From Vairimorpha apis BRL 01 (taxonomy: Eukaryota; Microsporidia; Nosematidae), in assembly GCA_000447185.1 (NCBI GenBank), contig KE647224.1, positions 4,773 through 15,933 on the forward strand: a DNA stretch of 11,161 nucleotides, given 5' to 3'. Made by a program: the position numbers and the translations under genes. Below the pieces are notes generated by a model. It saw only the letters and a program-made list of their open reading frames with translations, did no database searches and was not told where the DNA came from. Below are positions 54 through 10,780 of the stretch, piece by piece. Each line of letters begins with the position of its first letter. Within the stretch, counting starts at the first letter, position 1.

Positions 54-420
54 TTTTATAATATTTTCTTTAAGAATCCTCTTTATATTCTTATAATTTC
101 TTGTATTTATGCTTATTTCATTTTATTTATAGTTAATAACTTTTATGCATTAATATTTATGGAGATAAGAAATATTTTAATTATTATATTTTATATAGAT
201 AAATTAATATTACAATCTACCTATATCAATTTTAAATTACATATATTACAATATACAATCCATTTTTATTACTACATATATTAATTTTATTAATATATAT
301 ATCAATTTTATTATTATCTATATCAATTTTATTATAATATAAATATATTAATATTATAAGATTCACACATATATTATAAATCCACTAATATTACAAAATC
401 CATTAATATTATAAAATCCA

Positions 421-424
421 CCCC
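421..424 (+). promoter_or_regulatory. CCC-type start-proximal motif of the 429 gene
   Basis: The sequence CCACCCCTTCA runs straight into the ATG at 429, with four bases between the C-run and the start. CCC/GGG-like motifs next to start codons are described as transcription signals in microsporidia. Here it supports the choice of ATG at 429. Confidence 0.6.
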
Positions 425-428
425 TTCA

Positions 429-887
429 ATGCCACAAAGTAAAATAACAAAAGAAGTCTCACCTAATAAAATAAAAAGAGAAGTCTCACCTAATAAAATA
501 ACAAAAGAAATTCCACTTAACAAAATAACAAAAGACACAACACTTTTATCTCTAAAAAGAATCTTAGAAAACTATACAGACACAACAAAGAACAACCTAA
601 AACAAAAAATAGAACACAAGAAATTCAATCAAAATAAATCTTCATCTCTAATTGACATACTCAAAATATTTAAAACACAACTAGACGAATTTATAAAAAC
701 TAAAGAAAAAATAAGTATTTATGAATTTAATAAATGTTTAGAGATACTTGATAATATAAGAAATGAAATATATTTAGTTCAATGTGAGAATGATATTGTT
801 AGTAGGAAAGTGTTTGTTATGTGGATTCTGATGGGTGTTTGTGTTTTTATGTGTTGTGTTAAAGTTGTTCATTATAGATTGTTTTGA
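429..887 (+). CDS. Small tail-anchored membrane protein with N-terminal 9-residue repeats
   Basis: This gene encodes 152 residues and I do not recognise a family. Residues 5-39 are almost four copies of a 9-residue unit (KITKEVSPN, KIKREVSPN, KITKEIPLN, KITKDTTL), a basic and probably disordered segment. Residues 40-125 are polar and helix-prone, with heptad-like spacing around LIDILKIFKTQLDEF. A single hydrophobic segment at about 128-145 (VFVMWILMGVCVF) is followed by a short basic tail, so the predicted topology is C-terminally anchored with the bulk in the cytosol. Short SNAREs have this layout, but I cannot confirm SNARE layer residues. The ATG follows a CCC motif by four bases. The 5' 160 nt hold 30 C and 12 G, and the 3' 160 nt hold 4 C and 37 G, so synonymous usage flips along the gene. 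It could be a lineage-specific hypothetical protein. Confidence 0.75.
   Translation: MPQSKITKEVSPNKIKREVSPNKITKEIPLNKITKDTTLLSLKRILENYTDTTKNNLKQKIEHKKFNQNKSSSLIDILKIFKTQLDEFIKTKEKISIYEFNKCLEILDNIRNEIYLVQCENDIVSRKVFVMWILMGVCVFMCCVKVVHYRLF
441..545 (+). repeat. 27-bp in-frame repeat (KITKEVSPN units)
   Basis: Units start at 441, 468, 495 and 522. The first two share the stretch GAAGTCTCACCTAATAAAAT almost exactly, and the last two are diverged. The repeat keeps frame and encodes alternating basic and Pro/Asn residues at the protein N-terminus. Confidence 0.85.
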
Positions 888-902
888 ATTAATTTGTGAT
901 TG

Positions 903-1085
903 AGATAGGTTATATATTTGTTAATGTTGTGATAATGAAGTGTGTAGATATGTTGTGTAGAGTGAATATATTGTGTTGTGTTGAGTGAATATATATTTAA
1001 GATAGGTTAGATATGTTATATATTGATTAAGATAGGTTGTGTTATGTATTTATATTAAAGATAGGTTATGTTGTGTCATGTATAA
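903..1085 (+). repeat. Degenerate GATAGGTT repeats, about 30-bp period
   Basis: The core AAGATAGGTT occurs at 999-1008, 1029-1038 and 1058-1067, which is a 29-30 bp period. An earlier copy of the core, GAGATAGGTT, lies at about 902-911. The spacer holds GTTATGTAT-like and TTGTGTTGTG-like words. The array lies in the 3' flank of the 429 gene and consists only of A, G and T apart from one C. Confidence 0.65.
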
Positions 1086-1682
1086 AAATTATAGAAATAT
1101 TGTATAATATGTATTTATATATATAATTGTTTATAAAATAATTTGTTATATTTCTAATCTATATATTTAAAATATATTATATAAATGCATTATATTAATT
1201 AATTTATCTAATCAAGTATTTTTAATATAATAAATTTATATTAAATAAAAATAAACTGATTTTATTAATTAAATTAAAAAATTTATATTAAAAAATTTAT
1301 TATTTATTTGTATTAATCTATCTCTACTTAAAGAATTATAATATAAAATGTTTTTATAACCAATTTTAATACTATTAAATCTATATCTACTAATATTATT
1401 AAATCCACATCTACTAATATATATAATTTATTATCTCTCCATCTTTAACATACATATACTCATTAAAAATACTATAATCCACTTATTATTAAATTTATTA
1501 TCTTCACCATCTATAACATAATCACTACTTAAATTTTACAATAACACATTCTAATAATATAAAATCTATATCTACTAATACTTTTAAATCTACTAATACT
1601 ATTAAATCTACTCATTAAAAATATTATAATCTACTAAAAATATTAAATCCACGTCTTCAAATCATTTAATTTACTCATTAAA

Positions 1683-1770
1683 AATATTAAATCCACTAAT
1701 AATATTAAATCCACTAATAATATTATAATCTACTAAAAATATTAAATCCACTAATAATATTAAATTCACC
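1683..1770 (+). repeat. 18-19 bp tandem repeat AATATTAAATCCACTAAT
   Basis: Copies lie at 1683-1700, 1701-1718, 1719-1737 (diverged, one base longer), 1738-1755 and 1756-1770 (partial). Looser relatives such as TACTAATACTATTAAATC extend leftward to about 1370. A related motif family sits upstream of the 429 gene at 381-421. The array ends at the stop codon of the minus-strand gene at 1774. Confidence 0.8.
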
Positions 1771-1773
1771 AAC

Positions 1774-2361
1774 TCACATTAAAAACCCAACAAAATACAA
1801 ATAAATACCAACACAAACAACATTTAAACACTTCACTGTATCAATACACTCACTCACAAACCAACTACTACTTACACTAAATAAAATAAAAATAACAGGC
1901 CGTAAAACTAAGAAAAAACTTAAATAAATATAAACAGGAAAATAAATAAATCCAAGTAAATTTATATATAAACAAAATAAAAAATTATTGTTACTAAATA
2001 AAAAACAAATATAAGAAATAAATAGTTGGTAAAGTATAAATGAAGTTATTAGTAATAAATAATTGAGTAAAGGTAAATTGAATGAAGATAAAGTAATTGA
2101 TAGAATTAGTAATGTTAATAGGAATGTTAATTGGTATATATTTGGGTATTGATTATAGTGTTGATTATGGTATTGACTATGATATATATTATGGTTATGG
2201 TTTGGGTATTGATTAGTGTATATATTATGATGATTAGGATATTGACTAGGATATAGGTTAGGTTTATTTGGTGTTATTTTTTTTATGATGAGAGAATTTA
2301 AAATGTCTTTTAGTGTTAATGTAATGTTATATGAGGGTTTAGAGTGGTGTCTAATTACCAT
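1774..2361 (-). CDS. Five-TM membrane protein with QYPNHHNIY repeats, putative Yip1-like family member
   Basis: This gene encodes 195 residues. Residues 11-30 form an amphipathic start (LTLKDILNSLIIKKI). Residues 36-75 are a His/Tyr/Asn/Pro-rich repeat (YPSQYPNHHNIY, TNQYPNHNHNIY and shorter units). Five hydrophobic segments follow at about 76-95, 97-122, 127-151, 153-172 and 177-195. Segment three (YINLLGFIYFPVYIYL) and segment four, followed by ECIDTVK, line up in position with SYAYIILLSTSFIPIF and NGYLNLIRV of the 7901 gene. I infer a diverged paralog in which the repeat has expanded ahead of TM1. Yip1/Yif1 proteins have five TMs and work with Rab GTPases in ER-Golgi traffic, but no family motif is decisive. 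The coding strand reads AAAACCCAT 17 bases before the ATG, and an in-frame TAA lies shortly upstream, so the start is firm. On the + strand C:G is 36:5 at the left end and 5:38 at the right end. Confidence 0.75.
   Translation of the reverse strand: MVIRHHSKPSYNITLTLKDILNSLIIKKITPNKPNLYPSQYPNHHNIYTNQYPNHNHNIYHSQYHNQHYNQYPNIYQLTFLLTLLILSITLSSFNLPLLNYLLLITSFILYQLFISYICFLFSNNNFLFCLYINLLGFIYFPVYIYLSFFLVLRPVIFILFSVSSSWFVSECIDTVKCLNVVCVGIYLYFVGFLM
2134..2255 (-). repeat. Imperfect coding repeat, His/Tyr/Asn/Pro-rich
   Basis: On the + strand this is a run of GATTATGGTATTGA-like words. On the coding strand it gives QYPNHHNIY, QYPNHNHNIY, QYHNQHYNQYPNIY and similar units of about 9-12 residues. It forms an extramembrane segment just before TM1 of the 1774 gene. 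Confidence 0.75.
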
Positions 2362-2378
2362 TTGATTTTAATTAAGAT

Positions 2379-2381
2379 GGG
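2379..2381 (-). promoter_or_regulatory. CCC-type motif upstream of the minus-strand gene
   Basis: On the minus strand the sequence is ATAAAACCCATCTTAATT, 17 bases before the ATG at 2361. It matches AAACCCAT at 7889-7896, upstream of the 7901 gene. Its presence on the correct strand supports the gene's orientation and start. Confidence 0.55.
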
Positions 2382-2560
2382 TTTTATATATTTTTTGATG
2401 TGTTGAAAAGGGGATGGTGATGTGTGTATGTGGAGATTATGTAGTGATGTGTATTTAAATGTGTTTTGTTTATTTAATGTTTTATTAAAAAATGTGGTGG
2501 TATACTTATATTGAGTATATAAATTGTTGTATTATTTTTAATTTTATAATTATAATTGTT

Positions 2561-2825
2561 TAAGTGTTTGAGATGTTTGACGTTTTTTAGAAGTTTGGAA
2601 GTGATTTGTGTTATTTTTACTTTATTAAGTGTTTGAGATGTTTGACAGATTTTAGAAGTTTGGAAGTGATTTGTGTTATTTTTACTTTATTAAGTGTTTG
2701 AGATGTTTGACGTTTTTTAGAAGTTTGGAAGTGATTTGTGTGTTTGAAAATATTTTGGTTATTTGAGATGTTTGACGTTTTTTAGAAGATTATGTGATTT
2801 GTGTGTTTGAAAATATTTTTTGTTT
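2561..2825 (+). repeat. 65-bp tandem repeat, three good copies and decayed ones
   Basis: Copies start at 2561, 2626 and 2691 with an exact 65-bp step. Each opens TAAGTGTTTGAGATGTTTGA and contains TTTTAGAAGTTTGGAAGTGA. A fourth, shorter copy begins near 2756. Strongly decayed copies start near 2895 and 2978 (TAAGTTTTTGAGATGTTGGA and TAAGTATTTAAAATGTTTTA). The gradient of decay from left to right suggests growth at the left end. The tract is nearly free of C. Confidence 0.9.
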
Positions 2826-3195
2826 ATTTAAAATTTAAAACGTTAAACTTTTTTAACATTTTAAAAAATATTTAAATTTATAATTATACTTTATTAAGTT
2901 TTTGAGATGTTGGACAGTTTTTAGTATATAAAAATATTATTTATTTTTTGTATATTTAAAAAATATTAATACTTTATTAAGTATTTAAAATGTTTTACAT
3001 TTTTAAAAGATTAATTAAAAAACACATTTATTGATCTACCAATAATATTTTATTAATTTAATAATTAATATTATAAATAACATCACAAATAAAATGTTTG
3101 AAAATATCCTTATAATTTTATATAAATATAATAATTAATAGTTTTTTAAATAAATAGTAATTTATATTAAAATTAAAAAAATTTAGAATAATTAT

Positions 3196-3510
3196 AGATA
3201 TTTTTATTGTTTAGTAAATTTTATAATGATTTTAGATATTTTTATTGTTTAGTAAATTTTATAATGATTTTAGATATTATTTGTTAGTTTAGTAAATTTT
3301 ATAATGATTTTAGATATTATTTATCAGTTTAGTAAATTTATATATTAAAATTACTTTTAAAAAAAAATTTATAATAATTTTAAATTATTTGTTAGTTTAG
3401 TTAATTTATATATTAAAAATTATTTTTAAGCTTAAAGATTTATAAAAATTATGGAATAATTTTAAATGATTTATCAGTTTAGTAAATTTATATATTAAAA
3501 TTACTTTTAA
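3196..3510 (+). repeat. 38-40 bp tandem repeat plus a 150-bp spaced duplication
   Basis: Copies of AGATATTTTTATTGTTTAGT start at 3196 and 3234, then diverged copies (AGATATTATTTGTTAGTTTA) start at 3272 and 3312. A 40-bp segment beginning TTATCAGTTTAGTAAATTTA is identical at 3321-3360 and 3471-3510, and a diverged intermediate copy lies near 3389-3429. All share the core TTTAGTAAATTT. Confidence 0.85.
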
Positions 3511-3904
3511 GAAAAAATTTTAAATAATTTAAAAATGATTTACCATTTTAGTAAATTAAGATAATAATAAAATTTAAGCTTTAAGATTTATAGTGTAAAA
3601 AAATTAAAGAATTAATTTAAATAAATAAAAAAATAGTAAAATTCATTAAAAAAATTTAAATCTTTAACGTATAAATTTGGTATTTTAAGAATATAAAATA
3701 TAAATTAAGATATATCATTTAACATTTTGAAATATTTCAAATAATTAAAAATAATTAAATATATTTAGAAAATTTAGTATTTTAAAAATATTAAAAAAAT
3801 TATAAACCTTTTTATAATAAAAATTATGTATTTTTAGTCTAAAAAAATTTATAATTTTAGATAATTAAAAATTTCTTTTTATAGAAATAAATATAAAAGG
3901 TTCG

Positions 3905-4021
3905 AATAATCTAGTATTTTATTAAATATAAATGTTAATTTTAAAATTTATTTTTCTAAAAATTAATTAAAAAATTTAGATAATCTAGTATTTTTATTAA
4001 ATATGAATGTTAATTTTAAAA
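3905..4021 (+). repeat. 74-bp direct duplication
   Basis: The segment around AATCTAGTATTTTATTAAAT at 3908 recurs at 3982 with one extra T. Both copies continue into a shared AATGTTAATTTTAAAA. No function is apparent. Confidence 0.7.
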
Positions 4022-4200
4022 ATTCTAAAAATAGATTTGTAATCTATGATAATAAAAATTAATAAGTAAAATATTTTTAATAAAATTAATCAAAAATTTA
4101 GTAAATTTAAATAATAAATTATTTTAAAAAAAATGTGTTAATATTTATAATTCAATTAATAAAAAAAAGATTTTATTTAAAGGTCAATTTCATTATTTTA

Positions 4201-4323
4201 TTATTTTTCGCATTCGTATCTAACGAGTTCACTTAGTATGTAAGTTTTCGTTCCTCTAATTTTCCCTTATATTAAGTCGCCTCCTCATTTGTACTCCATT
4301 GATATACTCTCTAATTTTAATTA
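4201..4323 (-). pseudogene. Small GC-richer island, possible degraded coding relic
   Basis: This island has far more G and C than its surroundings. On the minus strand one frame reads LKLESISMEYK, a TGA, GGDLI, a TAA, then GKIRGTKTYILS and ELVRYECEK before a TAA at 4203-4201. The residues use codons for Gly, Arg, Glu and Cys that are rare in this AT background, which suggests an old protein-coding fragment with two in-frame stops. I do not recognise the protein. A structured RNA gene is an alternative, but no tRNA T-loop or clover-leaf was found on either strand. Confidence 0.35.
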
Positions 4324-4420
4324 ATTAAAAACATTTTTATTGATAATTTTATAATATAAAAAAAAGAACATTTTTATAAATAATTTTTTAATATAATAAT
4401 ATTCAATAGATACAAATAAA

Positions 4421-4640
4421 TTAATGATTTAATTGAAAAAGAATATTTTTATAAAATTAAATCTCTAATAAAATAATTTAATTAAAAACCACATTTTTAT
4501 AAATTTCAATTTCTAATAAATTATTTTTAATTAATATTAAAAAATTAATGATTTAATTAAAAAGAACATTTTTATAAAATTAAATCTCTAATAAAATAAT
4601 TTAATTAAAAACCACATTTTTATAAAATTTAATTTCTAAA
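4421..4640 (+). repeat. 124-bp direct duplication
   Basis: The segment starting TTAATGATTTAATT at 4421 recurs at 4545. Both copies continue through ATTAAATCTCTAATAAAATA and AATTAAAAACCACATTTTTA with few differences, so most of the unit is duplicated. It is C-containing and almost G-free on the + strand. Confidence 0.85.
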
Positions 4641-4650
4641 ATAAAAAACA

Positions 4651-4811
4651 TTCTAAATTTAAAAACCTTTTAATTAATCTCTAATAAATTATTTTTAATA
4701 GATATAGAACTATTAATAATTTTAAATTACTACAACATTCAAAATTTAAAAACCTTTTAATTAATCTCTAATAAATTATTTTTAATAGATCTAGAACTAT
4801 TAATAATTTAT
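4651..4811 (+). repeat. 87-bp direct duplication with further decayed copies
   Basis: The segment starting at 4651 recurs at 4738 with an 87-bp step. Shared words are AAATTTAAAAACCTTTTAAT and GAACTATTAATAATTT. Weaker AAAAACCTTTTAATTAA copies appear near 4829 and 4931, so the array decays toward the 5037 gene. Confidence 0.85.
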
Positions 4812-5022
4812 AAAAATATTCAACAATAAAAAACCTTTTAATTAAAAATAAATCTTTAAAATAAAACTTTTTTACATTTTAATTAAAAATTAATTTCAAT
4901 TTTAAAATAAAACAACATTCAATATTATAAAAAACCTTTTAATTAATCTCTAATAAAATAAATTTTAATAATAAAAAAACCTTTTTATAAAAATAAATTT
5001 TTATTAAATTTAAAAATAAAAA

Positions 5023-5025
5023 CCC
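5023..5025 (+). promoter_or_regulatory. CCC-type motif upstream of the 5037 gene
   Basis: The sequence AAAAACCCAACAAAATTAT precedes the ATG at 5037, with 11 bases between the C-run and the start. It marks 5037, rather than any start near 5176, as the beginning of this gene. Confidence 0.55.
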
Positions 5026-5036
5026 AACAAAATTAT

Positions 5037-5907
5037 ATGCAACAAAATCCACACTTATACACAAACATAATAAACTCACTAACACTAACAAAACCAACTT
5101 TTATTACACATATACCAACATTCATTTCATTACTTATAATAAACTTATTTCAGTTTACATTTATTTTAATCTTTATTGTTAATTTTGAAATTTAGTTTTA
5201 ATTATTTTTTTGTTATTTGTTTAGAAAGTTTGGGTGTTGTTTGTGTTAACTTTTTTGTTAGTTTGGGTATGGGGTATTTGTGTTTATATGTTTTGGGTTT
5301 TTATGGACGATCTTATAGTACGATGTATAGGTATAGGTTTGTTGGTGTTGTAAATAGAAATGGAGGACATTTTAATAATGAAAGAGAATCTAATTGTGAA
5401 AGAGGAGTAAGTGAAACACAATCTAATTGTGAAATAGGAGTAAGTGAAAGAGAATCTAATTGTGAAATAGGAGTAAGTGAAACACAATCTAATTATGAAA
5501 TATCATATAATGAAAGAGAAGTAAGTGAAAGAGAATCAAATGAATTATCACATAATGAAAGCGAAGTAAATGAAATATCACATAATGAAAGAGAAGAACT
5601 TGAAATACAATCAAATGAAAATATTTATAAACAAACCCTACTAAAATACACATACACATTCCTCTTAAGCAACTCACTTATTCCTGTCTTCATAACATAC
5701 ATTTATTTATTTAATATGTTTGCTGACATTTATGAACTTGTTTATGGTTGTATTTCAATTTACTATTGTTATATTAGTATTTTAAATGGTAGGCAAAGAT
5801 TTTTAGGTAGTAAAAAGTTGTTTGGTTTTAGATGTTTAATGGTTTGTTTTTTCTGTGTTAAAGTTATGAAGATTAAGTTTTTTATATATTGTTTATTTGG
5901 TAAGTAA
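5037..5907 (+). CDS. Five-TM Yip1-like paralog with a long loop repeat; one frameshift near 5170-5195
   Basis: The gene appears in two frames. ATG 5037 opens 52 codons (MQQNPHLYTNIINSL, then TM1 FISLLIINLFQFTFIL) ending at TAG 5193-5195. The next frame is open from 5170 and runs to TAA 5905-5907. Together they match the 7901 gene from end to end: TM1, TM2 (about 5230-5298), TM3 with SLIPVFITYIYLF against SFIPIFVVFIYLF, TM4 and TM5. The loop between TM2 and TM3, about ten residues in 7901, here holds some 80 residues of Glu/Ser/Asn repeats. The second frame has no ATG until 5269, inside TM2, so a separate gene is unlikely. The frame change needs one base skipped in the 26-base overlap. It may be a real lesion, a sequencing error or, less likely, a 43-nt GT-AG intron (5153-5195) that would remove part of TM1. 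The role is unknown; the Yip1-like assignment is inferred from topology. Confidence 0.65.
5380..5620 (+). repeat. 33-bp coding repeat (ERESNCEIGVS units) in the TM2-TM3 loop
   Basis: Four 11-residue units lie at 5380-5412, 5413-5445, 5446-5478 and 5479-5511. They alternate ERESNCE and ETQSNCE/SNYE, so the evolutionary unit is a 66-bp dimer. They are followed by degenerate pieces with NEREVSERESN, ISHNE and IQSNE. The DNA is A/G-rich, which makes the antisense strand open over long stretches. The segment is acidic and predicted to be disordered. Confidence 0.9.
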
Positions 5908-6075
5908 ACTGTTTTTTTATTTGAGTAGATGATTTTTTATTTGTTTGGTAATAAATTGTTTTTTATTTGAATAGATGGTTTTTAATTTGTTTGGTAATAA
6001 ATTGTTTTTTTGTTTGAATAAATTATTTCGTTTATGTCGTTTGAAAAAAGATGATTTTTATTTGATTGGTAATTA
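5893..6075 (+). repeat. 46-48 bp tandem repeat beginning at a stop codon
   Basis: The core TTTGGTAATAAATTGTTTTT lies at 5944 and 5990. A more diverged core (TTTGGTAAGTAAACTGTTTT) at 5896 includes the last codons and TAA stop of the 5037 gene. A fourth, weak copy (ATTGGTAATTAAATTG) lies near 6067. The array therefore grew out of, or into, the 3' end of the coding region. Confidence 0.8.
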
Positions 6076-6630
6076 AATTGTTTTTATATTTGATTGTAAG
6101 TAGAGGATTTTTAATTTATGTTATTTTTGTGTATTTTATTTATTGTTTGTAGAAAATAGATTTTATAGTATTTAAAATATTATATATTTAAAGTACTACA
6201 ATATTATAAATTATATGTTCAATATATCTAAAGGATGTAAAAGAACATTTAATGATAAGTTTTTATTTTAATTTGTAAACTCAAAATTATTTATGATGAA
6301 ATACTAAATTTATATATTTATTTTTATATTTAAGAAGTAAAATAATTTCTAATATTTTGTTAAAATAGTTAAAGTCTTTATAGTATTTTTTTAAAAATTA
6401 TAATTAAATTTACGTTTTTTTAAATTTATAAATACATACTTTTATTTTTTCATATTAACTAAAATATTATTAAGGATATAATTTTAAATTATTACATATT
6501 AATAATATGACTTTAGTAAAATAAATTTTTATTAAAATTAGAGTTTCAAAAAAACAATCTTGTGAATATTTTTTTAATTTACTAAGAATAAAAGTTTAAT
6601 TAAATATAATCTTGAAAATTAGTTGTTTTT

Positions 6631-6755
6631 TTAAAAACAATTTATGTTTTAATGTATTAAAATAAATAGAACTAATAAGAAATTTAATTTACTAGAAAAC
6701 TTTTTTTATTGAACAATATTTTAAAAACAATTTATGTTTTAGTGTATTAAAATGA
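6631..6755 (+). repeat. 90-bp spaced direct repeat
   Basis: The words TTAAAAACAATTTATGTTTT at 6631 and 6721 are exactly 90 bp apart. Both continue into A(A/G)TGTATTAAAAT. A decayed third copy (AATTATGTTTTGGTATAATA) lies near 6774, and ACTAGAAAA occurs in the second half of the first and third units. Confidence 0.8.
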
Positions 6756-7360
6756 ATATATTTTAAAGAAATAAATTATGTTTTGGTATAATAAATAATA
6801 ATAACTTATAAGAAATAATGTTACTAGAAAAAAAAATCTTTAAAATAATAAATTTATTATAAATAAAATAATATTATAATAAACTCTTTTGATCTTATAG
6901 ATATAAAAAAAATTAAATAAACAACACATCAAACATTGTGTACCGTTTTAATTTATAAAAATAATTCTTAAAATTTTTATTTTCGTTTTATTAATACATT
7001 TAGTAATATTAAAGTTTTTATAAAAATTAATTCAATATTATTAAAATACTAAAAAATTATTTTATTTTTTTATAAATTTAAATTTAATTTCTTTGCAAAT
7101 TTTAAGTTATAATTAAATTTTTAAAATTTATTTTCAGAATATATTTTTATAAAGATATCATAATTTTTTGATAAAAACGTAATTATATTTAAAATGTTAA
7201 TTTAATCACATTATGGAAAAAAATTTAAATTTTAAAAAAAGATTCATTTTTAAAAAAAATAAATTTATTGTAATCTGTAAAATATGAAATTATAAAATGT
7301 TATCTTTAAAATTTATAAATTCAATATTAAAAAAATAAATATAAACAATATACATTTAAT

Positions 7361-7840
7361 TATAAATTGTCATATATCTCAATATTTTATAGATTTCAAA
7401 AAAATATTTTTATATTAACATATAATGTATTCTTATTATATATATTTAATTTTAAACTGTATATATCATATTCTTATTTATATTAATATATAATATATTT
7501 AAAATAAATATTTTTTTAATTATAAACCGTCATATATTCAATATTATATAGATTGTAAAAATTATTTTTATATTAATAAATATTTTTTAGTATAAATTGT
7601 CATTTATATCATATTCTTTTTTACATTAATATATTTATAAATAAATACTTTTTTAATATAAACCGTCATATATTTCAAATATTTTCTCTAAATTAACATT
7701 AAAGATCTTTTTATATTAATATATAATGTATTGAAAATAAATATTTTAATATTAGGAGATGTTTATTTATTTCATATTCTTATTTATATTAATATATTAT
7801 AAATATTTTTTTAATATAAACTGTCATATATTTCAAATCT
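7361..7840 (+). repeat. Diverged 66-90 bp repeats carrying TATAAACYGTCATATAT
   Basis: The core starts at 7361 (TATAAATTGTCATATATCTC), 7451 (weak), 7521, 7591, 7657 and 7815 (TATAAACTGTCATATATTTC), with a degraded copy near 7755. Between cores lies a second shared block, TTTATATTAATATATAAT. The two best copies, 7657 and 7815, also share TTTCAAAT(A/C)TTTTCT. The array stops about 50 bases before the start motif of the 7901 gene. No spacer structure of CRISPR type is present. Confidence 0.75.
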
Positions 7841-7891
7841 TTTCTATAAACTAAAATCAATTTTATAAAAGTATTTAAATTAAAACTAAAA

Positions 7892-7894
7892 CCC
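7892..7894 (+). promoter_or_regulatory. CCC-type motif of the 7901 gene
   Basis: CTAAAACCCATTCAT precedes the ATG directly, with six bases between the C-run and the start. It is the closest match to the shared AAACCCAT word and fixes the start at 7901. Confidence 0.65.
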
Positions 7895-7900
7895 ATTCAT

Positions 7901-8515
7901 ATGACACCAACCACACCAAACAATAATATATCAACACAACCCAACAATAAAACAATCCAAGATACAATAAAAGATTATATAAAAACATTAATATTTCTAC
8001 CTATCCAATTCAATAACATCAAAACAAACTTTATACCAATATTGATAATAACAATATGCCAACAACTAACTTTAACAATATTATTACTAATTTTCCGTTT
8101 TATTAAAATAAAAAATATAATACACTATTTTTATAAAATAGATTTATTAAAATTTAATTATATAGCTTTAATTTTATTAATATCAAACTTAATATTTTCT
8201 TATATACTAGGATTAGTTTGTACTTATTTTATTGAAAAAGTTGATGATATTGAATTGAATTCTTATGCTTATATTATTTTATTAAGTACTTCTTTTATAC
8301 CAATATTTGTTGTTTTTATTTATTTATTTGAGAATATTAATAGTTTATTTGAGGTTTTGTGTTCTGTATTGGGATTTATGAATGGGTATTTAAATTTGAT
8401 AAGAGTTTGTTCTTTTGAGAGTTTGGGTGTTAAATATGTGTTTAGTATTTGTTTGTTGGTTAGTTATGGTTTTTATTTTGTTTTGGTGTTGTCTTATTTT
8501 ATAGTAAATAAATGA
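7901..8515 (+). CDS. Intact five-TM membrane protein, putative Yip1-like family
   Basis: This 204-residue protein is the best-preserved member of the local family. Residues 1-20 are polar and Asn/Thr/Pro-rich, without a signal peptide. A helix (TIKDYIKTLIFLPIQF, 18-37) leads into TM1 (43-66), TM2 (87-110), TM3 (123-143, SYAYIILLSTSFIPIF), TM4 (149-167, ending NGYLNLIRV) and TM5 (178-201). The short acidic loop at 112-120 (EKVDDIELN) is where the 5037 paralog carries its repeats. The helix-LP-F lead, five TMs and the Y.Y....PI pattern in TM3 resemble Yip1/Yif1 proteins of ER-Golgi membranes, but I see no residue that proves it. The N-terminal MTP, FLPI, SYAY and LSTSFI words are shared with the decayed copy at 9676. 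Codon choice flips: 7901-8060 has 36 C and 5 G, 8341-8500 has 3 C and 40 G. It could equally be a lineage-specific transmembrane family. Confidence 0.85.
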   Translation: MTPTTPNNNISTQPNNKTIQDTIKDYIKTLIFLPIQFNNIKTNFIPILIITICQQLTLTILLLIFRFIKIKNIIHYFYKIDLLKFNYIALILLISNLIFSYILGLVCTYFIEKVDDIELNSYAYIILLSTSFIPIFVVFIYLFENINSLFEVLCSVLGFMNGYLNLIRVCSFESLGVKYVFSICLLVSYGFYFVLVLSYFIVNK

Positions 8516-9231: not shown

Positions 9232-9447
9232 TCAATAACATAAAATTTTTTGTCTAAATTGTGGTATAACCCGTTCAAGTATCAGTCCTGAAGATAAATA
9301 TCTTTCCAAAATAGATTTTACCCCACCAATAAAATTGTCTCTTGTGTTAACCTTTTTGTTATTATATGTTTTATTTGAATAATTTACTATCCTTATATCT
9401 TTGCTCAGTATTGTATATATTTTATAAAGTAATTCTTTATATATTTA
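9232..9447 (-). pseudogene. Coding relic of an unidentified protein, no start codon
   Basis: The minus strand is open for 70 codons between TAA (9447-9445) and TGA (9234-9232). It reads IYKELLYKIYTILSKDIR, then IVNYSNKTYNNKKVNT, RDNFIGGVKSILERYL, SSGLILERVIPQFRQK and ILCY. The composition is that of a soluble, basic, helical domain with Gly, Arg, Gln and Glu. G+C is clearly higher than in the surroundings, and there is no Met codon. The RDNFIGGVKSILERYLSSG stretch looks like a real protein, perhaps from a mobile element or a lost gene, but I do not recognise it. No C-run start motif precedes it. The upstream side (9450-9600) shows no clear continuation in any frame, so this is a fragment rather than a spliced gene. 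Confidence 0.5.
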
Positions 9448-9675: not shown

Positions 9676-10298
9676 ATGACACCTGATTTATCAAACAATA
9701 CACGATCTGATTATGCAAATAAAACTGACAATGAGATGTTTATAGATTATTTAAGATCATTATTTTTCCTACCTATCAAAATATCTAATGTAAAATCTCA
9801 TTTTTTATCAATTTTTATAATAAGTTATTGTCAAAATGCAACTTTTTATTTATATTTTTTGGTTTCCTATGGTTTAAATGTCAATTTTTTAATAATTACA
9901 TTTCTTTTGACAAAAATGTTTATTATAAATTTAATATTTACACTTTCGGTAGGTTTTATTTGCAAATACTTTGTGAAAAAGTCTAAAGACACAGGATTTG
10001 CTTCTTATGCTTACAATTTTAGGTTAAGCACTTCGTTTATTATTATATACTTTATTTTTTTGTTAACTTTATGAATTATGATAAAATTTTAAAATTAATT
10101 TTTTTCCAATATCATTTTGCAATGGATATTTTAATATGAAAAGAGAAGTTACTTTTAAAAATGAAAAATCTGAATATATTTTTACTATTATCATGTTGTT
10201 GTTTTATATTATGTGGTTCTCAACTTTTTCTTTTTTCTAATTGGAAAAAAGCCAAAATTATTATTAAAATTTGTAGTTTATGTTATAAAGCATTTTAA
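9676..10298 (+). pseudogene. Decayed paralog of the 7901 five-TM gene (frameshift plus stop)
   Basis: The first 132 codons (9676-10074) align with the 7901 protein: MTP start, DYLRSLFFLPIKISNVK against DYIKTLIFLPIQFNNIK, FICKYFVKK against LVCTYFIEK, and SYAYNFRLSTSFI against SYAYIILLSTSFI. The frame then closes at TGA 10072-10074, early in TM3. The -1 frame resumes the homology at once (VNFMNYDKILKLIFF), with the change lying in or near the T-run at 10055-10061. That frame hits a TGA at 10137-10139 and stays open to TAA 10296-10298, which gives a full-length footprint of about 207 codons. Two lesions in one copy make a pseudogene more likely than an assembly error, although the T-run alone could be a sequencing slip. 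The C-to-G composition switch of the intact genes is nearly absent: 22 C:14 G at the start, 17 C:20 G before the first stop. Confidence 0.75.
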
Positions 10299-10312
10299 TA
10301 TTATTTTAATTG

Positions 10313-10780
10313 TTTTTTATTAACTTAAGTTTATTTTGTATTAATATTTCAAATAATTTGTTTTTTATAAATTATTTTTTTATAACTTAAGTTTATTTTT
10401 CAATAATATTTAAATATTTTGTCTTTTTTAAGCTTATTATTTAAAGTGTTTTTTATAAACTTAAGTTATTTTGCAATAATATTCAAATAATCTGTTTTTT
10501 ATAAATTTATTTTTTTATAACTTAAGTTTATTTTTCAATAATATTTAAATATTTTGTCTTTTTTAAGCTTATTATTTAAAGTGTTTTTTATAAACTTAAG
10601 TTTATTTTGCAATAATATTCAAATAATCTGTCTTTTATAAATTTATTTTTTATAACTTAAGTTTATTTTTCAATAATATTTAAATATATTGTCTTTTTTA
10701 AGCTTATTATTTTATGTGTTTTTTATTAACTTAAGTTTATTTTGTATTAATATTTTAAATATTTTGTCTTTTATAAATTG
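10313..10780 (+). repeat. 135-bp higher-order (dimeric) satellite
   Basis: The word AACTTAAGT starts at 10322, 10384, 10458, 10519, 10593, 10654 and 10728. The steps alternate 62, 74, 61, 74, 61 and 74 bp, so the true unit is a dimer of 135-136 bp, present three times plus a partial copy. One half carries TTTTCAATAATATTTAAATA followed by TTTTAAGCTTATTAT. The other carries TTGCAATAATATTCAAATAA. The first and last copies share TTGTATTAATATT instead, as if edge copies had been spared homogenisation. The array abuts the end of the 9676 pseudogene. Confidence 0.9.

Follow-up and report, generated by a model that had tools for sequence, protein, structure and literature searches.

Strand-composition switches near the midpoints of coding blocks in part of the genome of Vairimorpha apis

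Why should the forward strand of a microsporidian contig pass from C-rich to G-rich within one gene after another, whichever strand encodes the gene? The question is raised by a stretch of 11,161 nucleotides from Vairimorpha apis BRL 01 (assembly GCA_000447185.1, contig KE647224.1, positions 4,773 to 15,933 of the forward strand), called here the window, whose coordinates are used below. A first-pass annotation of its letters reported such a switch inside all four putatively functional genes, and proposed gene-centred bidirectional replication starts as the first candidate cause.

The switch in the four window genes

A four-state HMM, together with the genes and repeats, gives the window the following features.

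199..714: left arm of island 1, A/C-rich, upstream DNA and 5' part of gene 1 (HMM)
429..887, + strand: gene 1, 152 aa
715..1081: right arm of island 1, G/T-rich (HMM)
1082..1357: AT-only spacer, with a G/T arm to its left and an A/C arm to its right
1358..2024: left arm of island 2, A/C-rich (HMM)
1774..2361, - strand: gene 2, 195 aa, membrane-protein-like by eye
2025..2809: right arm of island 2, G/T-rich, containing a 65-bp tandem array at 2560-2804 (HMM)
2810..4585: AT desert between islands (HMM)
4586..5171: A/C-rich arm left of the first block of gene 3 (HMM)
5037..5907, + strand: gene 3, paralogue of gene 4, open in two frames (5037-5195 and 5176-5907)
5172..5413: G/T-rich arm, right half of the first block of gene 3 (HMM)
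5414..5602: repetitive low-complexity insertion within gene 3 (33-bp repeats)
5603..5701: A/C-rich arm, left part of the second block of gene 3 (HMM)
5702..6152: G/T-rich arm right of the second block of gene 3 (HMM)
6153..7817: AT desert (HMM)
7818..8096: left arm of island 4, A/C-rich (HMM)
7901..8515, + strand: gene 4, 204 aa, membrane-protein-like by eye
8210..8492: right arm of island 4, G/T-rich (HMM)
9676..10224, + strand: decayed paralogue of gene 4, 35% identity, with three TGA and four TAA along the match

The reported C-to-G switch is real. Recounts are identical for gene 3 (C29/G2 in 5037-5166, C4/G36 in 5201-5340) and agree closely for gene 1 (C27/G12 in 429-580, C4/G36 in 740-887), gene 2 (C39/G8 in 1774-1960, C6/G50 in 2150-2361) and gene 4 (C43/G6 in 7901-8100, C5/G46 in 8300-8515). 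A cumulative C-G walk turns at 682-702, 2010, 5174 and 8208, the last being the midpoint of gene 4, and once more within gene 3 at 5708. As the A/T flip accompanies the C/G flip (A-rich left, T-rich right), the contrast is one of A/C against G/T, and the islands of all four genes carry it in the same order on the + strand. A C-left/G-right pattern had been noted to be strand-palindromic, suiting a gene on either strand, and genes of both strands do give the same order. When 250-bp windows were scanned, the four C-to-G peaks were 41, 40, 36 and 29; four peaks of at least 29 did not arise together in any of 300 shuffles, whichever of four block sizes was used, while at least one such peak occurred in 2 of 300 shuffles of 30-bp blocks and in 112 of 300 of 100-bp blocks.

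The suggestion that synonymous sites follow the switch, beyond amino-acid content, is borne out by genes 1, 2 and 4, gene 3 being left out of the pool because its frame is broken. Third positions count C35/G6 on the left and C3/G47 on the right, and fourfold sites C9/G0 and A43/T14 on the left against C0/G8 and A21/T51 on the right (Fisher p 4e-5 for C/G, 2e-7 for A/T). The noncoding DNA is skewed likewise, with C31/G1 in 200-428 and C1/G48 in 888-1100 on the two sides of gene 1, C69/G1 in 1373-1773 and C7/G104 in 2362-2820 around gene 2, and weaker values around gene 4 (C15/G9, C8/G13). Among seven genes on three contigs, all 14 noncoding flanks have the expected sign (left flanks C>G in 7/7, right flanks G>C in 7/7), and the pooled GC skew is -0.86 on the left and +0.87 on the right, in ranges that, like the inner block edges used below, were picked after the profile had been seen. 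Amino acids are thus not the cause, given the fourfold switch and the matching sign of the flanks. The decayed paralogue serves as an internal negative control: its composition is mixed, with no switch.

The protein of gene 1, with a polar N part carrying a 27-bp tandem repeat (440-535) and a hydrophobic C end, has itself as sole match in the assembly and no Pfam match. In public data there is a 199-aa version of gene 2, 97% identical, and a protein 98% identical to gene 4; searches with these two proteins each brought up a single close version and no relative bearing a name. The public versions differ by five substitutions (P0001) and by one substitution plus a four-residue insertion (P0006), too few to polarise.

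The coding block as unit, and its distribution

It had been supposed that each gene holds one gene-centred event, a view not supported by the longer genes, in which several flips alternate by block and insertion. Gene 3, two open pieces in different frames, has more than one switch, and on the cumulative walk a myosin-like gene and the gene for V-ATPase subunit d have several each. In such genes C-to-G flips lie near the middle of each coding block, about 530-790 bp apart inside one gene (gene 3, V-ATPase d, myosin-like), and G-to-C flips lie in low-complexity insertions; since long genes flip several times, the unit is the block and not the gene. In stretch L036 the Pfam myosin-head profile ends at 354 before the insertion and restarts at 357 after it. 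G-to-C flips fall in spacers and insertions in the window, namely at 1149 (walk) to 1229 (250-bp windows) in the AT-only spacer, in the deserts 2810-4585 and 6153-7817, and at the right end (5597-5604) of the insertion 5414-5602, and likewise in the C71 myosin and V-ATPase d genes. The left part of the first desert leans towards G and the right part towards C, and a short patch of higher GC lies at 4182-4311.

Placement at the midpoint is close. By one automatic procedure, five one-block genes have their flip 0.001-0.097 of gene length from the midpoint, and the walk rises by 48-76 on either side; when 37 ordinary ORFs are treated in this way, 2 lie within 0.1, the mean offset of the 37 is 0.519 and the largest rise is 21. 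Over 12 blocks, whose inner edges were hand-set, flips lie on average 0.069 of block length from the midpoint, where uniform placement would give 0.25; a mean as small arose once in 1,000,000 simulations. Modest walk extrema are common in ordinary DNA (230 of prominence at least 15, plateau points counted separately, in 164,743 bp), so that little weight attaches to the weaker inner flips of V-ATPase d by themselves. Tandem arrays are present in arms, deserts and insertions alike, which rejects tandem repeats as the sole cause.

The earlier view that the switch belongs to every gene is not supported. With the island stretch L026 set aside, skew beyond 0.6 in both flanks is seen in 0 of 48 ordinary ORFs whose 200-bp flanks are clean, even the expected sign in both halves is seen in 6 of 50 sampled ORFs, and the mean skew of these 50 shows no switch, so a genome-wide trait is rejected; ordinary ORFs show a faint trend of the same sign (upstream -0.04, downstream +0.11). 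The first 23 stretches yielded one further place at the window's level, a Yip1 gene, and a pattern search led to a DHHC acyltransferase, V-ATPase subunit d and the myosin-like gene. Five places taken from those listed for the island pattern gave islands in three cases (C17 twice, C71), nothing at C31 and, at C29, a G/T segment of just 120 bases. Since the pattern that led to C17 and C71 was itself G/T-rich, the skew there does not count as an independent sample. The island pattern shows no enrichment relative to its reversed control (84+83 matches, compared with 116+106 for the control). Within the sample, skew islands are confined to certain contigs; the part of the genome concerned is minor and marked by AT deserts. 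The first-pass annotation held that a switch missing from most genes would mean chance or amino acids; most sampled genes do have none, but flanks and fourfold sites exclude both explanations here.

The Yip1 family model has no match in the genome, and an intact public Yip1 protein scores just under the curated cut-off of that model. The SecY model and the microsporidian small-subunit rRNA model also found no match. Close versions of three island proteins are present in other public data.

Sources of the skew

The reading that we favour, with a probability of roughly 0.4, is that the skew is a footprint of double-strand breakage and resection in the spacers. Conserved blocks would be bordered by unconstrained, repeat-rich DNA, either intergenic deserts or in-frame low-complexity insertions, in which an event may recur, most likely a double-strand break followed by 5'-to-3' resection. 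Resection would bare one strand on each side, the + strand left of the event and the - strand right of it, and the bared strand might gather C-to-T and A-to-G changes through deamination-like damage. Over time the + strand would become G/T-rich left of a spacer and A/C-rich right of it, so that a block between two spacers would take in A/C at the left edge and G/T at the right. The opposing effects would cancel at the block midpoint, where the C-to-G switch would be the shadow of spacer events, and short one-block genes would have a single switch.

Several observations agree with breakage and resection. G/T on the left and A/C on the right do meet at a common point in spacers and insertions. 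In yeast single-switch clusters, the mutated bases of the top strand are C's to the left and G's to the right (PMC6786661), which would leave a break with GT on its left and AC on its right, as around the spacers here. The pooled purine fraction of the flanks is near-neutral (0.48 and 0.52), as one-strand transitions would leave it. The arms keep one of the two bases, C/(C+T) being 0.26 in the left arm and G/(A+G) 0.39 in the right, and the deserts are poor in both (0.08 and 0.11). Other observations count against it. The purine content of single flanks runs from 0.44 to 0.69. The decayed paralogue and decayed-looking DNA at L026:2695-4118 adjoin deserts yet lack the arms, and the A/C arm is absent beyond a desert where decayed or mixed DNA follows (window 9252, L026:2695). 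AT segments also border ordinary unskewed genes (L011, L012, L027), so a desert alone is insufficient. Moreover, the differences between gene 4 and its unskewed paralogue include, in the left half, 38 T>A and 13 A>T, transversions that transitions alone do not produce. Possible, if doubtful, is the wider proposal that deserts and insertions are chronic sources of single-stranded DNA, with block composition set by distance from two edges, C-to-G flips marking block midpoints and G-to-C flips fragile sites.

Transcription-linked asymmetry, in which sense transcription would make the 3' part and downstream DNA G/T-rich and antisense or divergent transcription the 5' part and upstream DNA A/C-rich as read in the sense direction, is an unlikely source. 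Both arms reach beyond the coding region, the faint trend of ordinary ORFs has the same sign, and the decayed paralogue is without a switch, all as transcription would have it; however, the sign reverses repeatedly within the myosin-like and V-ATPase d coding regions, which is beyond a single sense unit paired with a single antisense unit, and the pattern is limited to some of the sampled contigs. Transcription would give one sign per unit, reversed on the other strand, whereas the + strand order is constant and flips lie within genes.

To much the same degree, it is improbable that selection on RNA or DNA composition made block starts A/C-rich and ends G/T-rich, aiding RNA folding, translation or end signals. 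The rule does track coding blocks and is missing from decayed DNA, and centre-crossing pairs exceed the shuffle mean in two of five islands (179 vs 139 in gene 4, 225 vs 210 in L026). Yet, compared with 40 half-preserving dinucleotide shuffles, folding energy is not improved (z of 0.03, 3.04, -1.17, -0.44 and -1.27 for the five islands), the skew extends into noncoding DNA as far as a few hundred bases from the genes, and YIF1, another membrane-protein gene, has no switch. Inverted repeats or hairpin RNAs are not supported, as the halves of the five islands are not complementary beyond composition and local inverted-repeat scores are at shuffle level, with gene 3 the sole modest excess (49 vs 34.7+-5.4). 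Membrane proteins as such are also rejected as the cause, for YIF1, of a membrane-protein family, has ordinary composition, and V-ATPase subunit d, a soluble protein, has an island.

Replication starts centred on blocks or genes are less probable again. C-left/G-right is the expected polarity of an origin, a weak skew of this order is seen at yeast Mcm sites (PMC10945306), and a C-to-G rise across the site is indeed found. Against this, initiation would be needed mid-block in nearly every conserved island block, several times per gene, in blocks as short as about 250 bp (edges hand-set); and origins imply one flip each, with skew running on to fork termination, whereas the flips are 530-790 bp apart and strong skew stops within a few hundred bases, at deserts. 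Slightly less probable still are origins within deserts and insertions whose leading strand would be A/C-rich: the polarity around spacers agrees, deserts tend towards G in their left parts and C in their right parts, and an earlier yeast report, as retold in PMC10945306, gave an origin skew opposite in sense to that of bacteria, but each insertion inside a single gene would need to be an origin. Amino-acid composition, chance or an assembly artefact is barely credible: several proteins are polar in the N part and hydrophobic in the C part, but fourfold sites and noncoding flanks contradict this reading, V-ATPase subunit d has the switch, and three island proteins have close public versions.

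If breakage and resection in the spacers are the source, simply counting nucleotides would be enough to find fragile sites and functional blocks in a parasite genome, and base composition would be a readable ruler of local breakage, even within one gene. Local DNA damage would then shape codon choice, and perhaps amino-acid choice, over hundreds of bases, and low-complexity protein insertions would be linked with DNA instability.

Comparison with known systems

A C-to-G switch in GC skew is known at transcription start sites and R-loop regions, where it is linked to transcription; the switch described here differs in lying mid-block, away from the gene start. No account of intragenic skew alternating with protein blocks was found in the accessible portions of the literature, microsporidian genome papers included, and within those portions only the Encephalitozoon cuniculi paper treats base skew.

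The yeast APOBEC3A single-switch clusters at double-strand breaks have the same polarity, with C hit on the left and G on the right of the top strand (PMC6786661). They were made with an added deaminase, whereas the pattern here would be a fixed evolutionary footprint and has A/T asymmetry as well. The rise in GC skew at Mcm sites of Saccharomyces cerevisiae shares C-left and G-right over a few hundred bases; it is slight and emerges as a mean across thousands of sites, most of them intergenic (PMC10945306), in contrast to a switch that is near-total at single loci, lies inside coding blocks and is repeated within a gene. At the chromosome ends of E. cuniculi, strong local strand asymmetry likewise occupies part of a microsporidian genome, and replication or transcription is invoked for the GC and AT skews (PMC4704409). 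There, each chromosome end has a skewed region, whereas in V. apis arms of a few hundred bases alternate around coding blocks.

Skew switches in the window

The C and G counts reported by the first-pass annotation at the four window genes (gene 1, 429-887, +; gene 2, 1774-2361, -; gene 3, 5037-5907, +; gene 4, 7901-8515, +) were borne out by a recount. In cumulative walks, C-to-G flips (C excess giving way to G excess) lie at 682-702, 2010, 5174 and 8208, plus 5708, and the base contrast across them is A/C versus G/T. The window was segmented by a four-state HMM into A/C-rich (AC), G/T-rich (GT), AT and mixed states.

Segments of the window, + strand, four-state HMM
1-198, mixed
199-714, AC
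715-1081, GT, then AT
1358-2024, AC
2025-2809, GT, then AT and a mixed patch
4586-5171, AC
5172-5413, GT
5414-5602, mixed
5603-5701, AC
5702-6152, GT, then AT
7818-8096, AC, then AT
8210-8492, GT, followed by AT and mixed states up to the window end

The claim that synonymous choices follow the switch also holds, the switch being present at pooled fourfold sites and third codon positions of genes 1, 2 and 4. It is even stronger in several noncoding flanks (1373-1773, C69/G1; 2362-2820, C7/G104), and by base counts the flanks of gene 4 are weakly skewed. Four C-to-G peaks as in the window were found in 0 of 300 shuffles at each of four block sizes.

The deserts (AT-rich DNA outside the islands) contain a tandem array at 10299-10779, with 3.5 copies of a 135-bp unit and 93% matches, and two short higher-GC patches, 4182-4311 and 9252-9413, neither of which has an ORF of at least 60 aa or an Rfam match at gathering thresholds. 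A decayed paralogue of gene 4 (9676-10224; 35% identity, three TGA and four TAA along the match) is without a switch. A public version of the gene 2 protein, P0006, has four extra residues repeating their neighbours, which points to length instability within the island.

Coding blocks as the unit of the switch

The gene as the unit of the switch, as first proposed, is contradicted by long genes with several flips each. In the myosin-like gene (walk; contig C71 coordinates minus 23,400), C-to-G flips occur at 574-586, 1365 and 2025, and G-to-C flips at 241, 975 and 1762, the last (L036:562) inside a low-complexity insertion in the sampled stretch L036 that splits the Pfam match, which ends at profile position 354 and restarts at 357. 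The walk of the V-ATPase d gene flips C-to-G at 569, G-to-C at 918-926 and C-to-G at 1122-1133. Judged by eye, the stretch at about 900-978 is rich in N and D; the main Pfam match begins at residue 110. Gene 3 has an equal layout of flips around its repeat insertion.

Across 12 blocks (conserved coding stretches), with inner edges hand-set from matches and repeats and the Yip1 and DHHC gene ends read across the frame break, the C-to-G flip lies on average 0.069 block lengths from the block midpoint, a value as small arising in 1 of 1,000,000 simulations; for the five one-block genes the mean offset is 0.051 (300 of 1,000,000). A single automatic procedure gave offsets of 0.001 to 0.097 and rises of 48-76 for island genes. 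In 37 ordinary ORFs the mean offset was 0.519 and the rise reached at most 21; two of them had offsets no larger than 0.1. One stretch homologous between genes 3 and 4 is A/C-rich in gene 3 (5638-5700), and its gene 4 counterpart is richer in T and G; on this sequence comparison, base composition seems to be decided by place, not ancestry.

Islands elsewhere in the assembly

The sampled assembly comprises 5.96 Mb in 223 contigs, the window being C138:4773-15933; the first 4,772 bases of that contig (KE647224.1) are N and were left out. Two tubulin genes in the assembly are intron-free and open over 439 and 433 aa. Further islands were sought by a pattern search. Because the pattern was chosen for matching G/T-rich DNA, skew at its matches is expected; the order and position of flips there are not. 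On contig C17, - strand matches come before + strand ones. In stretch L034, AC 286-761 and GT 898-1606 surround a gene for a DHHC acyltransferase (PF01529, E 1.4e-12), which switches to another frame after about 1030. L035 carries the V-ATPase subunit d gene on the minus strand (PF01992, E 8.7e-29), flanked by C28/G0 on the left and C1/G51 on the right, and L036 and L039 (C71) the myosin-like gene (PF00063), open in several frames. The places examined on contigs C31 and C29, from the same match list, have no island, C29 having just one 120-base G/T segment.

The only Yip1 gene detected in the assembly lies in L026 (contig C70), with flanks of C33/G0 and C3/G49 and a frame broken near 590; the closest named relative of its protein is Yip1 of Hamiltosporidium tvaerminnensis (54%), on which basis the genome is taken as microsporidian. 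Four island genes have reading frames that are open in pieces only, the pieces lying in different frames (window 5037-5907; L026 near 590; L034 near 1030; L036 near 570 and 840). Since an intact 198-aa public Yip1 version (P0002) exists, either assembly error or recent decay may be the cause. L010 (C10:20001-27586) is myosin-like at 5076-7205 by reading its translation and of ordinary composition, possibly a contrast to the skewed C71 gene.

Among 23 stretches (169,928 bases), one other place reaches window level, L026 at 419 (peak 39; next 26), and the HMM found no AC or GT segment of at least 200 bases in 22 other stretches. With L026 left out, 6 of 50 ORFs of at least 150 aa have the expected sign in both halves; among 48 ORFs of at least 130 aa with 200-bp flanks, none has both flanks skewed beyond 0.6, the island sign appearing in 29 left and 26 right flanks. 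The share of AT-desert windows is largest in the window (0.37) and L026 (0.32), the next of the 24 stretches having 0.27. Throughout 164,743 bp of other stretches, weak walk extrema are everywhere (230 of prominence at least 15, plateau points counted apart) and strong one-sided excursions are also present in ordinary DNA; C-to-G maxima of prominence at least 60 number five, against four in the 11-kb window. The rare feature is a strong rise and fall inside one gene's length.

Proposed break resection from block edges and its rivals

A flip at the midpoint is the outcome expected of two opposed processes launched from block edges. A single gene can carry several flips, which makes block-centred replication origins unlikely. 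The tentatively favoured explanation, with a confidence of roughly 0.4, is breakage in spacers, where resection would expose the + strand to the left and the - strand to the right; we infer the breaks, their recurrence and the chemistry. On the exposed strand, C-to-T and A-to-G changes would lower C and A, raise T and G, and leave purine content unchanged. The pooled flanks have purine fractions of 0.48 and 0.52 and amino (A+C) fractions of 0.61 and 0.34. Around spacers the + strand is G/T-rich on the left and A/C-rich on the right, and the leftover G and C of the desert 2810-4585 lean like these arms. Deserts, reached from both sides, would lose both C and G, and they are poor in both, as resection from block edges predicts.

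Set against this, neither the decayed gene 4 paralogue (9676-10224) nor the decayed-looking DNA of L026 is skewed, and both adjoin deserts; AT segments also border ordinary unskewed genes elsewhere in the sampled stretches, and gene 4 differs from its paralogue by many T/A transversions. Given these points and the weak gene 4 flanks, edge-in resection needs some further condition, perhaps expression or regional state, and for the same reasons transcription and selection stay live rivals.

In the accessible portions of the open-licence literature on microsporidian base skew, replication origins, subtelomeres and Hamiltosporidium genomes, intragenic alternation of skew was not found. Skewed regions are reported at the chromosome ends of E. 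cuniculi (PMC4704409), and in yeast single-switch clusters the mutated bases are C's to the left and G's to the right (PMC6786661).
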